From contig NZ_JNWV01000035.1 of NCBI RefSeq assembly GCF_000716535.1, forward strand, positions 73,279-137,278: DNA of 64,000 bases. Reading direction: 5' to 3'. A model generated the notes under the pieces. It was not told where the DNA came from. It made no database searches and saw only the letters and a program-made list of their open reading frames with translations. The translations under genes and the position numbers were made by a program. Shown piece after piece: positions 59,009 to 63,984 of the stretch. Position 1 is the first letter of the stretch. Each line of letters begins with the position of its first letter. The stretch is from Streptomyces flaveolus. GTDB lineage: Bacteria; Actinomycetota; Actinomycetes; Streptomycetales; Streptomycetaceae.

Positions 59009-59953
59009 ATGCCGCAGACCGAGACACCGGGCACCGAGGTGGCCCCGCGACCCCGGCTGCGCTGGTGGACCGAGCTGCCGCTGATCCTGCTGGTCTACGG
59101 CTGCTACTCGGCCGGCCGGCTCCTCGCGCGCGGTGACGTCACCGGCGCCGTCGACCACGGCCTGGCGATCCTGCGCGTCGAGAAGGCCCTGCACCTGAAC
59201 GCGGAGCACCCGCTGAACCGGCTGTTCACCCGCGAGGCCTGGCTCGGGGTGCCGGCCGACTTCTGGTACGCCTCGCTGCACTACCTGGTCACGCCCCTGA
59301 TCCTGGTCTGGCTGTTCCGCGCGTGCGCCCCCCACTACCGCGCGGCCCGCACCTGGCTGATGACGTCCACGTTCATCGGCCTGATCGGCTTCAGCCTGCT
59401 GCCGACCTCCCCGCCCCGCCTGCTCTCCGCCGATCACGGCTTCGTGGACACGATGGCGCAGTACAGCGCGTACGGCTGGTGGGGCGGCGAGGCCAGCGCC
59501 CCGCGCGGCATGGGCGGCATGACCAACCAGTACGCGGCGATGCCGAGCCTGCACGTGGGCTGGGCGCTGTGGTGCGGTGTGATGCTGTGGCGGTACGGCG
59601 GCTCGCGCCTGACGAAGGTCCTCGGTGTCGTCTATCCGCTGGTGACCGCGCTGGTGGTCATGGGCACCGCCAACCACTACTTCCTGGACGCGGTCGCGGG
59701 CGCGGCCGTGATGGGCGTCGGCCTGCTGCTGGCACCGCGGATGATGCGGGCCGCGGACCTCGTCCGGACCCGGCTGTCCCCCCGTACCGCACCGGTCCCG
59801 GACGGCACGGGTTCCCCGATTGTCAGTGCCGGATGCCAGACTTCGGCGGGTGAGCGAATTCCACGGCAGCGCGAGTCGCGGCTCGACCCCGCGGCCGGAC
59901 CGGACGCCTCCCCCAGCGACGCGGGCGAAGGGGCTCCGGCACCGGCTCGCTGA
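59009..59953 (+). CDS. PAP2-type membrane phosphatase/phosphotransferase
   Basis: This 314-aa protein has six predicted membrane helices and PAP2 motifs MPSLHVGWALW (second motif) and ANHYFLDAVAGAAVMG (third motif His-Asp). The arrangement matches the inositol-phosphorylceramide-synthase-like PAP2_3 family. It acts on lipid phosphates at the membrane. It has a long hydrophilic C-terminal tail (about residues 265-314), which overlaps the start of the nuclease gene by about 100 nt. Confidence 0.9.
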   Translation: MPQTETPGTEVAPRPRLRWWTELPLILLVYGCYSAGRLLARGDVTGAVDHGLAILRVEKALHLNAEHPLNRLFTREAWLGVPADFWYASLHYLVTPLILVWLFRACAPHYRAARTWLMTSTFIGLIGFSLLPTSPPRLLSADHGFVDTMAQYSAYGWWGGEASAPRGMGGMTNQYAAMPSLHVGWALWCGVMLWRYGGSRLTKVLGVVYPLVTALVVMGTANHYFLDAVAGAAVMGVGLLLAPRMMRAADLVRTRLSPRTAPVPDGTGSPIVSAGCQTSAGERIPRQRESRLDPAAGPDASPSDAGEGAPAPAR

Positions 59954-61070
59954 GCTGCGCGGTCCCGACGTACCGGCCAAGGCCCTGGACGCCCGCGCCC
60001 TCGCGGCGCTCGCCGCGAACCCGGGCTGCTCCCGGCGGGCGATCCTGGACGGCGCCGGGGTGGACAAGGCCAAGCTGGCCGGCGCGCTGGGCGCGCCGTC
60101 CGGCTTCGGGCAGTCGCAGTTCGCGCTGACCCGGGGCAACGCGTTCGAGGCGCGGGTCAAGGCGGACGGCGGCGCCGAGCTGCTGCGCCTGGTGCACGCC
60201 CGGCTCGACCCCGGCGCCGAACCACCCGCCACGGCGGCCGTGCCCGACCTGACCGCGCACGGCCCCGAGGGGCGTACGGCCCGTACGGCGCTGGCGCTGC
60301 GCGAGGCCACGCGGGCCGGCGGCTGGACGCTCCTGGACCATCCGATGCTCGCTCTGGACGTGGCCGGTTCGCTCGCCTTCCTGGAGCCGGACGCGGTCGT
60401 GGTGCACCCGGACGGCAGCTGGTCGGTGGTCGAGATCAAGTCCTTCCCGATGGTGGACGGCGCCGCGGACCCGGCGAAGGTGGGCGCGGCGGCCCGCCAG
60501 GCGGCGGTGTACGTGCTCGCCCTGGAGGAGGTCGCGAAGCGTCTCGGCGCGGAGCCGGAGGGGCACGACCCCAAGGGCGCTCCGGTGCCGCGGGTGCGCC
60601 ACCAGGTGCTGCTGGTGTGCCCGAAGGACTTCTCCAACCTGGCCGCGGGCTCCGCCGTGGACGTCCGCAAGCAGCGCGCGGTCACCGCGCGCCAGCTCGC
60701 CCGGCTCACCCGCGTCGAGGAGATCGCCGACGCGCTGCCCGAGGGCACGTGCTTCGCGCCCGACCGGCCCGCCGAGGAGCTGACGGCGGCCGTGGAGGCG
60801 GTGCCGGCGGCGTACGCGCCCGAGTGCCTGTCCGCCTGTGAGCTGGCCTTCCACTGCCGGGAGCGGGCCCGCGCGGCCGGCGCCGTCACCCGCCTCGGCC
60901 GGCCGCTGCGGGCCGAACTGGGCGGCCTGGCCACGGTCGAGGAGGTGCTGGCGGCCGCTCACGGCGAGAGCGGCGACCCGGACGACCCGGCGGTGGCCGC
61001 CCTGCGCCGGGCGGCTGCCCTGCGCGCGGAGGCCCTGCGCCAGGCCCGGGAGGCGGTCCCGTGTCCCTGA
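59850..61070 (+). CDS. RecB-like PD-(D/E)XK nuclease with 4-Cys iron-sulphur pattern
   Basis: This 406-aa protein starts at GTG 59850; in-frame TTG 59820 and GTG 59826 are alternatives. The nuclease core has Asp181 (LEPDAVVV) and Glu195-Ile-Lys197 (WSVVEIKS). Cys60 (NPGCSRR) lies before the core, and Cys326, Cys330 and Cys336 (ECLSACELAFHC) after it. One upstream Cys plus a C-terminal triplet is the 'iron staple' layout of AddB, Cas4 and Dna2 nucleases. It is the first of three genes overlapping by 10 and 4 nt. It is expected to cut DNA ends or flaps, guided by the helicase partner. Confidence 0.82.
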   Translation: MSEFHGSASRGSTPRPDRTPPPATRAKGLRHRLAELRGPDVPAKALDARALAALAANPGCSRRAILDGAGVDKAKLAGALGAPSGFGQSQFALTRGNAFEARVKADGGAELLRLVHARLDPGAEPPATAAVPDLTAHGPEGRTARTALALREATRAGGWTLLDHPMLALDVAGSLAFLEPDAVVVHPDGSWSVVEIKSFPMVDGAADPAKVGAAARQAAVYVLALEEVAKRLGAEPEGHDPKGAPVPRVRHQVLLVCPKDFSNLAAGSAVDVRKQRAVTARQLARLTRVEEIADALPEGTCFAPDRPAEELTAAVEAVPAAYAPECLSACELAFHCRERARAAGAVTRLGRPLRAELGGLATVEEVLAAAHGESGDPDDPAVAALRRAAALRAEALRQAREAVPCP

Positions 61071-62650
61071 TCACCACCCTCGCCCGGCTGGAAGCCGTCG
61101 GCACGGGCCGGGCGCAGCGCACCGCGACCGTCCGGCACCGGCATCTGTCCGACCACCCGCTGGTGTTCGTGCCGCTCACCACGGCCGGTGAGACGGGTGC
61201 CCCGCTCGGCGCGCTGGTCGGCACCGACCGTGACGCGCCCCGGCTGCTGGTCGTGCCCCAGCCCCGCGACCGCGACCTGCGCTTCACGTTCCTCGCCGAC
61301 CTGGCCGACGTCGTCCTGCCGTACATCGACGCGTACGCCGACTCGGTGGAGGCGGCCGAGCGCACCGAGACCGACCCGGAGACCGGCAAGCGGGTCAAGG
61401 TGGCGGCCGAGCTGTGCGCGGACGCGCCCCAGCTGATCGTGCCGAGCCGCACGGGCCTGGACTTCGTACGGCTGCTGGGCCGCTCCATGCGGTTCCGGCG
61501 CACCGCCGAGCAGGACCCGGACGCGCCCTACCCGGCGCCGCCCCGGGTGCCGCTGCTCGGCCGCTGGCTGACCCACTACGGCGAGCGGGCCCGGGTCCCG
61601 GGCTCCTCGCTGCTGCTCGCCCTGACCGATGTGCTGTCCCGGCACTGGGCGACCGGCCAGTCGGGCCTGGAGGACGAACACCTGGGCGCGCTGCTGGCCT
61701 GGATCGACCCCCCGGAGGGCCTCAGCGGTGCCGAGGCCGCCCACCGGGCCGAACTCGCCAGGGACGCCGACGGCCAGTTGCTGTGCCCGCCGGCCGGCCC
61801 CGCCACGGACCCGGCGTTCGACAACAAGCTGCTGGCCCCGGCGATCGAGCGCTACGACCGCGCGCGCACGGCCCTGGCCGCCGCCGAGGACCCGCTGGAG
61901 GCCGACGACCGGCTGGCCGCGCTCACCCGGGCCGAGCGGGAGATCCGCGACCTGGTCGAGAGCCGTACCCGGCCCACCTGGGACGCGGTGTGGCGGGGCC
62001 TGGACCTGCTGCGGGCGCTGCCGGTGGGCGCGCACGTGGAGGGGCGCTGGACCCGGGACCGCTGGTCGTTCACCGGGCACCGGGACCGGGTGCTGGCCGG
62101 TGAGCCCCCGCAGCCGCGCCGGGACGACGCGGTGACGGCGGCGAACAAGCTGGCCACGCGCGAGCGTGAGCAGTCCCGGCTGGAGGCGCAGGAGGCGCTG
62201 GACGACCCGCTGGTGATGGCGGGGCGGCGGCTGGCCGGGGAGGCGTTCGCGGGCGAGGTGACCGACGTCGTGATGGCGTACAGCGAGGGCAAGCGGCCGA
62301 GCCCGCGCCCGCTGGTGACGGTCCGCACGGACGACCGGCCGCATCTGGCGGAGCGGGCGAAGGTGTACCGCTCGCTGGGCGGCAAGCCGCAGTCGGCGGA
62401 GTTCGTCGGTCAGGAGGCCGACGGTGTGCTGGTCCTGCGCGTGATGGACAAGATGGGCCGCGGCAAGGAGCCGGAGCCCGGGTCGGTGCCGGAGAAGGGC
62501 GACCGGGTCTGCTTCACCCTGTTCGAGCACGAGCAGCGCGGCGGTGCGAAGCTGCCCGACCCGGAGGAGACCCCCTGGACGCACGGCGGCCCGCCGGGCG
62601 AGCCGGCACCGGAGGCCCCCGACACCGTGACCGAGGAGGACGTGCTGTGA
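61061..62650 (+). CDS. Unrecognised 529-aa partner protein of the nuclease-helicase set
   Basis: Starts at GTG 61061, inside the nuclease gene, with GGGAGGC upstream. The N-terminal alpha/beta part (about 1-130) includes FVPLTTAGETGAPLGALVG and LLVVPQPRDRDLRF. A helical middle part (about 130-380) has RVPLLGRWLTHYGERARVPGSS and LTRAEREIRDLVESRTR. A C-terminal beta-rich barrel-like part (about 390-500) has RPHLAERAKVYRSLGG, EADGVLVLRVMDKMGRG and PEKGDRVCFTLFEHEQRGG. The last part resembles the OB or beta-barrel accessory domain of Upf1/Dna2-type enzymes, which is inference from position and strand pattern. The nuclease and helicase overlaps prove coupling. Confidence 0.7.
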   Translation: MSLITTLARLEAVGTGRAQRTATVRHRHLSDHPLVFVPLTTAGETGAPLGALVGTDRDAPRLLVVPQPRDRDLRFTFLADLADVVLPYIDAYADSVEAAERTETDPETGKRVKVAAELCADAPQLIVPSRTGLDFVRLLGRSMRFRRTAEQDPDAPYPAPPRVPLLGRWLTHYGERARVPGSSLLLALTDVLSRHWATGQSGLEDEHLGALLAWIDPPEGLSGAEAAHRAELARDADGQLLCPPAGPATDPAFDNKLLAPAIERYDRARTALAAAEDPLEADDRLAALTRAEREIRDLVESRTRPTWDAVWRGLDLLRALPVGAHVEGRWTRDRWSFTGHRDRVLAGEPPQPRRDDAVTAANKLATREREQSRLEAQEALDDPLVMAGRRLAGEAFAGEVTDVVMAYSEGKRPSPRPLVTVRTDDRPHLAERAKVYRSLGGKPQSAEFVGQEADGVLVLRVMDKMGRGKEPEPGSVPEKGDRVCFTLFEHEQRGGAKLPDPEETPWTHGGPPGEPAPEAPDTVTEEDVL

Positions 62651-63984
62651 CGACCGTCGACTTCGATCCCGGAGCCGCGGCCGGCCGCGCCACCGACGCG
62701 ATCCTCCACGACACGCTGCACGGCGCCGAGCGGGGCGTGGTGGTGGACTCCCCGCCGGGCGCCGGCAAGTCGACGCTGGTGGTCCGCGCGGCCCTCGAAC
62801 TCGCCGGTGCCGGGCGCCCGCTGATGGTGGTGGCCCAGACCAACGCCCAGGTGGACGACCTGGTCCTGCGCCTGGCCGAGAAGGACCCGGACCTGCCCGT
62901 CGGCCGTCTGCACAGCAGCGACGCCGACGCGTACGACAAGGCGCTGGACGCCTTGCCGCAGGTGCGCACCTCGGCGAAGGCGGCGGACCTGAACGGCCTG
63001 CCGGTGGTGCTCTCCACGGCGGCCAAGTGGGCGCACGTGAAGGTGGACGAGCCGTGGCGGCACGCGATCGTGGACGAGGCGTACCAGATGCGCTCCGACT
63101 CCCTGCTCGCGGTGGCCGGGCTGTTCGAACGGGCGCTGTTCGTGGGCGACCCGGGCCAGCTCGACCCCTTCTCCATCGTCGGCAGCGAGCAGTGGGCGGG
63201 CCTGTCGTACGACCCCTCGGCCTCGGCGGTCACCACCCTCCTGGCCCACAACCCGGACCTCCCCCAGCACCGCCTGCCGGTCTCCTGGCGCCTGCCGGCC
63301 TCGGCGGCGCCCCTGGTCTCGGACGCGTTCTACCCGTACACGCCGTTCCGCAGCGGCACGTCCCACGGGGACCGCCGGCTGGCCTTCGCCGTGCCCTCCG
63401 ACGGCTCCGGCCCGGACCGGGTGATCGACGAGGCCGCGGAGTCCGGCTGGGGCCTGCTGGAGCTGCCCGCCCGGCACACTCCGCGCACGGACCCGGAGGC
63501 GGTCCGGGCGGTGGCGGCGGTGGTCCGCCGGCTGCTGGACCGGGGCGGAGCGGCCGTGTCGGAACGCGCGCCGGATCCCACCCCCCTCACCGCCGACCGC
63601 ATCGCCGTGGGAACGGCCCACCGCGACCAGGCGGCGGCGATCCGCTCGGCCCTGGCCGACCTCGGCGTCCCGGACGTGACCGTCGACACGGCGAACCGTC
63701 TCCAGGGCCGCGAGTACGACGTCACGGTCGTCCTGCACCCGCTCTCCGGCCGCCCCGACGCCACCGCCTTCCACCTGGAGACGGGCCGCCTGTGCGTGCT
63801 GGCCTCCCGCCACCGCCACGCGTGCATCATGATCTGCCGCGCCGGGGTGACCGACCTGCTGGACGACTACCCCTCCACGGAACCGGTCCAGCTGGGAACG
63901 CTGGTGAAGTTCCCGGACGGCTGGGAGGCGAACCATGCGGTCCTGTCCCACCTGAGGGAACACCGGGTGCCCTGGCGCCCCTGA
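62647..63984 (+). CDS. SF1B (Upf1/Dna2-like) helicase
   Basis: This 445-aa protein starts at GTG, overlapping the previous stop by 4 nt. Helicase motifs in order: I DSPPGAGKST (34-43), Ia VVAQTNAQVDD (61-71), II IVDEAYQM (141-148), III GDPGQLDPF (167-175), IV VSWRLP (212-217), V VDTANRLQGREYDV (346-359) and VI LCVLASRHRHA (382-392). This is a complete minimal SF1B core without fused accessory domains. It should translocate on single-stranded nucleic acid with ATP, and its partners supply nuclease and probably the barrel. The gene ends 16 bases from the window edge. Confidence 0.88.
   Translation: MTTVDFDPGAAAGRATDAILHDTLHGAERGVVVDSPPGAGKSTLVVRAALELAGAGRPLMVVAQTNAQVDDLVLRLAEKDPDLPVGRLHSSDADAYDKALDALPQVRTSAKAADLNGLPVVLSTAAKWAHVKVDEPWRHAIVDEAYQMRSDSLLAVAGLFERALFVGDPGQLDPFSIVGSEQWAGLSYDPSASAVTTLLAHNPDLPQHRLPVSWRLPASAAPLVSDAFYPYTPFRSGTSHGDRRLAFAVPSDGSGPDRVIDEAAESGWGLLELPARHTPRTDPEAVRAVAAVVRRLLDRGGAAVSERAPDPTPLTADRIAVGTAHRDQAAAIRSALADLGVPDVTVDTANRLQGREYDVTVVLHPLSGRPDATAFHLETGRLCVLASRHRHACIMICRAGVTDLLDDYPSTEPVQLGTLVKFPDGWEANHAVLSHLREHRVPWRP

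Follow-up and report, generated by a model that had tools for sequence, protein, structure and literature searches.

A three-gene operon at the end of the contig

The window analysed here is a stretch of 64,000 nucleotides (nt) of Streptomyces flaveolus DNA, the end of which is also the end of contig C35 in a genome of 10.35 Mb. Its final three genes, all on the forward strand, form a compact set called N, M and H below. N (59850..61070, with a GTG start) encodes 406 amino acids with the features of an iron-staple-type RecB/Cas4 nuclease, M (61061..62650; 529 amino acids) a putative bridging subunit of no known family, and H (62647..63984; 445 amino acids) the 1A and 2A lobes of a superfamily 1B (SF1B) helicase without a 1B domain. 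N and M overlap by 10 nt and M and H by 4 nt, the coupling that an earlier note on this DNA had described, and each overlap is kept in 57 of the 70 loci, out of 80, in which all three genes were found by script. The set is read here as a split DNA2-like enzyme, which is well supported, and as one that most likely helps to repair damaged DNA, because the operon lies behind a promoter of the DNA-damage type.

At E <= 1, neither N nor M has a match among the Pfam, NCBIfam and PADLOC models. Relatives are nevertheless numerous: a large protein set, with scoring limited to the candidates that share most words, holds at least 3731 for M, at least 3424 for N and at least 4814 for H, and among the matches listed (120 for each protein) they are close, belong mostly to named Streptomyces and are mostly labelled hypothetical protein or AAA protein. 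The ratio of nonsynonymous to synonymous substitution rates is about 0.20 for N and about 0.30 for M in a single comparison, with S. griseofuscus. A scan for sigma-70 promoters and terminators found none.

N, a predicted iron-staple-type nuclease

RecB-family nucleases carry the motif set H, D, E-x-K and Q-x3-Y in this order, and the same order is found in N (H164, D181, E195-I-K197, Q217-x3-Y221). One cysteine precedes the nuclease core (C60) and three follow it (C326, C330 and C336, spaced C-x3-C-x5-C). Conservation was followed in 134 N sequences, namely the window and 133 from fetched loci that cover at least 70% of the protein; they are mostly from Streptomyces, and some loci of one genome are counted twice. 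The four cysteines, D181, Q217 and Y221 are invariant (134/134), and H164, E195 and K197 are each kept in 131 of the 134. The catalytic and cysteine residues named in the earlier note thus lie where it placed them and, being invariant or nearly so, are not a matter of chance. For E195 and K197, the deviating sequences belong to an N paralogue of two Streptomyces genomes (G246, fetched twice, and G469) that reads L-I-R in place of E-I-K and has therefore probably lost its nuclease activity.

The modelled fold of N resembles Cas4, RecB, Exo5, AddB and Dna2 and is thus of the RecB/Cas4 type. The segments that hold the four cysteines (residues 58-89 and 323-341) are modelled with a predicted local distance difference test (pLDDT) value below 50. 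A PDB search with N returned just two designed proteins (E 0.31 and 0.45), and twelve N relatives compared with known families gave one weak match to PDDEXK_1 (0.0025) and two to MarR_2 (best 0.012). Taken as a whole, N is a putative RecB-family nuclease of the iron-staple type found in AddB, DNA2 and Cas4, and its cysteines would be expected to hold an iron-sulphur cluster. We know of no dedicated helicase partner for the Cas4, Exo5 and MGME1 nucleases.

H and M, a motor without a 1B domain and its neighbour

H has the motifs of an SF1B motor, with Walker A (GAGKST, 38-43), DEAYQ (143-147), GDPGQL (167-172), WRL (214), QGRE (353) and SRHR (387). Motifs I, II, III, V and VI are present, and their key residues are kept in 131-134 of 132-134 sequences. 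The protein matches Pfam AAA_11, AAA_12 and AAA_30 and, in the PDB, SMUBP-2 (1.4e-8) and DNA2 (1.8e-7). SF1B helicases of the Upf1/DNA2-like kind carry a 1B barrel in the same chain, ahead of Walker A. In H only about 35 residues precede Walker A, which leaves the chain without a 1B domain; the complete SF1B core claimed for it earlier holds for the two RecA-like lobes, 1A and 2A, but not for 1B.

M ends in what may be the missing part. Its model comprises an N-terminal alpha/beta region, a helical hairpin (251-319), stalk-like helices (357-392), a six-stranded barrel (about 391-489) and a conserved tail of the PWTHGGPP type. The barrel-like C-terminus that the earlier note had seen is therefore borne out as a modelled six-stranded barrel, but the model is of moderate confidence, and its resemblance to the 1B domain of senataxin (SETX) and Sen1 is tied in score with unrelated barrels. 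Among twelve M relatives compared with known families, the best match was no better than 0.15. With the whole M model, Foldseek matched BAR-PH and F1-ATPase chains, but with low TM values, and nothing at E <= 0.001 among viral structures; these outcomes were regarded as uninformative. From the model and the short N-terminus of H, we infer that the C-terminus of M supplies a 1B stalk and barrel to H; an RNase-H-like exonuclease domain in decay is a conceivable identity for its N-terminal half.

Distribution and co-occurrence

Two samples of 296 genomes each were searched, one of the phylum and one of the class Actinomycetes. In the phylum sample M was found in 11 genomes, all within the class. 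In the class sample, to which the counts below refer, N and H (E <= 1e-30) were each found in 48 genomes and M in 49; compared by eye, the three share the same 48, and the additional M match, in G487, is a trace of 108 residues with two stops. Judged from coordinates, H lies less than 300 nt from M in 45 of the 48, so that the genes are kept together in related genomes, as the earlier note had expected of a real system. The distance is 1.5 kb in G554, where an opposite-strand open reading frame (ORF) of 395 amino acids, transposase-like by eye (L167:11808-12995), stands between M and H and explains the gap, and 36 and 49 kb in G204 and G466. Because H is retained even at 36-49 kb from M, the three are an obligate set also outside an operon. 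Second copies in four Streptomyces genomes (G182, G246, G469 and G513) likewise consist of N, M and H. In Streptomyces, the genus of the window, 27 of the 28 listed genomes have all three genes and the remaining one (G504) has none.

No M match was found in phage records, and scans of viral contigs with M, N and a paralogous M gave no relative. A plasmid collection gave three matching records, one of them an 11.85-Mb Nonomuraea record. A phage or plasmid origin was rejected on these grounds.

A candidate damage-type promoter inside the PAP2 gene

The gene ahead of N (59009..59953, forward strand) encodes a PAP2-family membrane phosphatase (Pfam PAP2_3, 2.9e-64) and shares its last 104 nt with N. 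An N-M-H copy behind such a gene is called a core copy here. PAP2 lies upstream of N on the same strand in 77 of the 80 core loci, where the start of N falls within its 3' end (overlap 92-143 nt, mostly 104), as opposed to none of 23 loci with diverged paralogues (L146-L168); it was accordingly rejected as a subunit of the machine.

Within the 3' end of the PAP2 ORF, at 59820..59842 on the forward strand, lies a candidate promoter of the RecA-NDp/PafBC type: TTGTCAGTG, a spacer of 8 nt and CAGACT, ending 7 nt before the GTG of N. The consensus, which we take to be TTGTCRGTG-N8-TANNNT near the gene start, is matched in full at the -35 element and with one letter off at the -10 element (CAGACT). 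Of 77 core Streptomyces loci, 70 have TTGTCRGTG at position -30 relative to the N start, and in 67 of the 70 sequences then compared (the window and 69 core loci chosen for having TTGTCAGTG) a spacer of 8 nt separates TTGTCAGTG from CAGACT. Four of the eight PAP2 codons that the motif covers have A or T as their third letter, in a gene whose third positions are 92% G+C, which points to a constraint on the DNA itself. As the start codon of N lies where transcription should begin, the message is probably leaderless.

The pattern TTGTCRGTG-N9-A-N3-T occurs at 80 sites in this genome, compared with 3 for a backward control, and many of the 80 likewise carry C at the deviating -10 letter. Sites of this type also precede uvrA, uvrB, pcrA, dnaE and ogt: ten downstream proteins, picked from 30 sites with loci and some of them for a repair-like look, included UvrB, UvrA, DnaE, PcrA and Ogt, and the other five had no match at 1e-20. 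First genes of the promoter set without an NCBIfam match at this threshold lie at L214, L218, L223, L235 and L241.

Of 10 further Streptomyces loci, 7 have TGTCRGTG close to where N is estimated to start, and it was also seen in one of the 23 diverged loci (L150, more than 500 nt upstream). With 22 of the 23 diverged loci and all of 20 single-chain genes lacking it nearby, the damage promoter was rejected as a general feature outside Streptomyces, and the link to damage is thus a Streptomyces feature. The site before N resembles the RecA-NDp motif, to which PafBC binds. What is new here is a putative RecA-NDp-type (PafBC) DNA-damage promoter ahead of the N-M-H operon in Streptomyces. In the parts of the literature consulted, PafBC is described as acting in a RecA-independent damage response and as present in other actinobacteria (PMC8223512; PMC6789036).

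Comparison with single-chain helicase-nucleases

In DNA2, two residues separate the second and third cysteines. The eukaryotic enzyme is one chain, whereas the present system has three and a spacing of x3 between these cysteines. AddAB and AdnAB combine nuclease and motor in one chain, and their motors are of the SF1A type.

Closer in its layout is Bad of Geobacillus, which, as far as its description was available, likewise has an iron-staple nuclease, a central part without family and an SF1B helicase in the same order (PMC7430649). It is one monomeric chain as opposed to three here, and it is likened by description and not by sequence. The accessible part of that study presents the central conserved part of Bad as of unknown structure, reports a second class in Mycobacteria and Rhodococcus, and makes no mention of a split form. 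A split N-M-H form was not found described in the open-access literature either, and no paper turned up under SCO numbers estimated from the distance to orn. In the window and the loci examined, nuclease and SF1B helicase lie in separate ORFs and not, as in DNA2 and Bad, in one chain.

The TM0106-family single chains of actinobacteria (TIGR03491 with AAA_11/12) also begin with a RecB-type nuclease and end with an SF1B helicase. They are one open frame of 1146-1564 codons in 20 loci, and an RNase_H_2 domain was present in both proteins scanned. H is homologous to their helicase part (hhalign 3e-20). The TM0106 link proposed for N did not survive: N of the window has no NCBIfam match at E <= 1 and thus none to TIGR03491, the best score for that model in its own genome is 21.5 bits, elsewhere (C31), against a cut-off of 97.45, and in profile comparison neither N nor M significantly resembles the nuclease, the RNase_H_2 or the middle parts of the single chains. 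Scores on the true and the reversed template were 15.3 and 22.0 for the N-terminal part of M, 16.3 and 23.1 for whole M, 13.9 and 11.5 for the M barrel and 21.1 and 16.0 for N, none of them significant and all within noise. Membership of N in the TM0106 family was therefore rejected.

TM0106 proteins above the cut-off occur in 99 of the 296 genomes, and together with N-M-H in two (G050 and G519). Counted by genome, this is near-exclusion (2 of 48 with N-M-H, 97 of 248 without; p 2e-7), which is confounded by kinship; by genus the avoidance is not significant (2 of 12 vs 35 of 102, p 0.33), and little is made of it for these two reasons. In the families f84 and f85, N-M-H occurs in 7 and 10 genomes and TM0106 in 13 and 14, never together. 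At most, the avoidance hints at a similar function.

Diverged paralogues and their neighbours

Directly before N, 14 of the 23 diverged loci have a gene of about 255-290 codons and no known family, called X here (L148:9929-10699, L153:10599-11396 and 12 further loci). Its N-terminus is coiled-coil-like by eye, and four members gave no Pfam match. A whole-genome search found X absent from eight of ten genomes, and the other two have an X-type paralogue. In a tree of M, the copies cluster by family; by parsimony the presence of X takes three changes, and one origin is also possible.

SbcD and SbcC genes divergently adjoin X in five of the 23 loci, from four lineages, with remains only in L147. 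In eukaryotic end resection, MRN and DNA2 act together, and Mre11-Rad50 (SbcCD) beside a DNA2-like set recalls that arrangement. On two Streptomyces plasmids, one recorded as linear and one as circular, X-N-M-H is followed by JetA-D, with divergent SbcCD ahead (in pieces in L147), in an element near the record ends (L146:5343-21676; L147:208-14021). The two are one element (N-M-H 92-96% and Jet proteins 79-84% identical), and they alone among the 23 loci have JetABCD beside the cassette. Other neighbours are an HmaA-like SNF2 helicase (L151) and restriction-type helicases (L152, L165 and L166). The L-I-R paralogue of N (L151:10017-11135; L166:7135-8253) is accompanied beyond X by a PDDEXK_1 protein, encoded by a divergent gene, in L166 (4392-6032) and by a relative of it in L151 (12238-13878).

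Beside X-N-M-H in L163 (281-6791), an AAA_5-type protein and an AAA/WD40 protein of 1835 amino acids are encoded on the opposite strand and look like a defence or signalling module, and in L164 (12618-15655) DUF2397 and DUF2398 genes directly follow an X-N-M-H cassette that adjoins SbcCD. The defence-gene neighbourhood that the earlier note had raised is thus seen beside some diverged paralogues, but none of Wadjet, SbcCD and X was found in the window or the 80 core loci.

A probable three-chain DNA2-like machine and its alternatives

On balance, N-M-H is probably a three-chain DNA2-like helicase-nuclease, switched on by damage, that trims or resects ends or flaps beside AdnAB. H would be the SF1B motor of two lobes, to which M would add the missing 1B stalk and barrel, so that the motor would be complete only with M bound; M would also hold the nuclease N on the motor. 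The machine would load on 5' single-stranded tails or flaps, move 5' to 3' and cut the strand, and in Streptomyces its operon would be switched on after DNA damage from the RecA-NDp/PafBC-type promoter inside the PAP2 gene. Damaged ends and flaps would be trimmed or resected as a result. The claim of a three-chain nuclease-helicase with DNA2-like parts in DNA2 order draws its support from the conserved cysteines and from co-occurrence even where H stands apart. Also in favour of the full reading are the fold of N, the helicase kinship of H, the SETX/Sen1-like barrel of M, the promoter-type site with the genes it accompanies elsewhere, and SbcCD beside paralogues of four lineages.

Several points weigh against this reading. 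The M model is weak (pLDDT 64; predicted template modelling score 0.54), and its barrel matches the SETX and Sen1 1B domain no better than unrelated barrels. In profile comparison, N and M have no significant kinship to DNA2-like single chains. For 22 of the 23 diverged loci, a search out to 1.5 kb from N found no damage promoter, and TGTCRGTG lies near none of the 20 single-chain genes examined. The paralogue without E195 and K197 also suggests that nuclease activity of N is not needed everywhere.

The missing kinship of N and M, together with the position of H away from N-M in two genomes, would suit an operon of separate repair functions without a stable complex, composed of an Exo5/Cas4-like exonuclease, a DNA-binding protein and a helicase. 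We hold this to be unlikely: across the 296 genomes, and also in the second copies that four genomes carry, the genes occur all together or not at all, the overlaps are conserved, and a helicase lacking 1B stands beside a gene ending in a barrel. Equally unlikely is that a single-chain TM0106/DNA2-like enzyme of other actinobacteria was split in place and kept its job. Homologous helicase parts, the identical order of parts and the rarity of genomes with both systems (2 of 48, and 0 of 17 in f84 and f85) speak for such a split, but N and M match no other part of the single chains significantly, the avoidance by genus is not significant and no promoter is common to both; although the helicase kinship was found, an origin by splitting in place was not accepted.

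Anti-phage or anti-plasmid defence, with the motor moving along foreign DNA and the nuclease degrading it, is distinctly improbable. The plasmid element with X-N-M-H directly ahead of Wadjet JetABCD, the SNF2 and restriction-type helicases and SbcCD near paralogues, and the type III methyltransferase gene that adjoins Bad in Geobacilli according to the part of that study seen (PMC7430649) speak for it. The Wadjet adjacency may, however, be chance, since L146 and L147 are one element and Wadjet is reported, in the part of the source available, for 42% of Actinobacteria (PMC10482375). The earlier note had left repair and phage defence side by side: repair is favoured for the window copy by the damage-type promoter, and phage defence is unlikely for it because almost all genomes of the genus carry the core copy, which is free of Wadjet, SbcCD and X and has that promoter; phage and viral-contig relatives were also lacking.

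Significance

Eukaryotes and some bacteria make these DNA-cutting and DNA-unwinding parts as one protein. As separate chains, they are natural material for dissecting the separate contributions of iron-staple nuclease, 1B barrel and motor to DNA2-like enzymes, and two of the three, N and M, are unnamed in Pfam, NCBIfam and PADLOC. A wider view, which we regard as doubtful though conceivable, is that of a three-subunit DNA2-type resection machine with its 1B domain outside the motor chain, near-fixed and damage-induced in Streptomyces and allied with SbcCD in its X-N-M-H form, as a bacterial counterpart of MRN-DNA2 evolved as separate chains. The linear chromosomes of Streptomyces often rearrange, and AdnAB is taken, in the part of the source consulted, as the main helicase-nuclease of the genus (PMC5869714). 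If the three-chain reading is true, an actor so far missing from end processing would be this second helicase-nuclease, which 27 of the 28 sampled Streptomyces genomes have and which is encoded behind a damage-type promoter.

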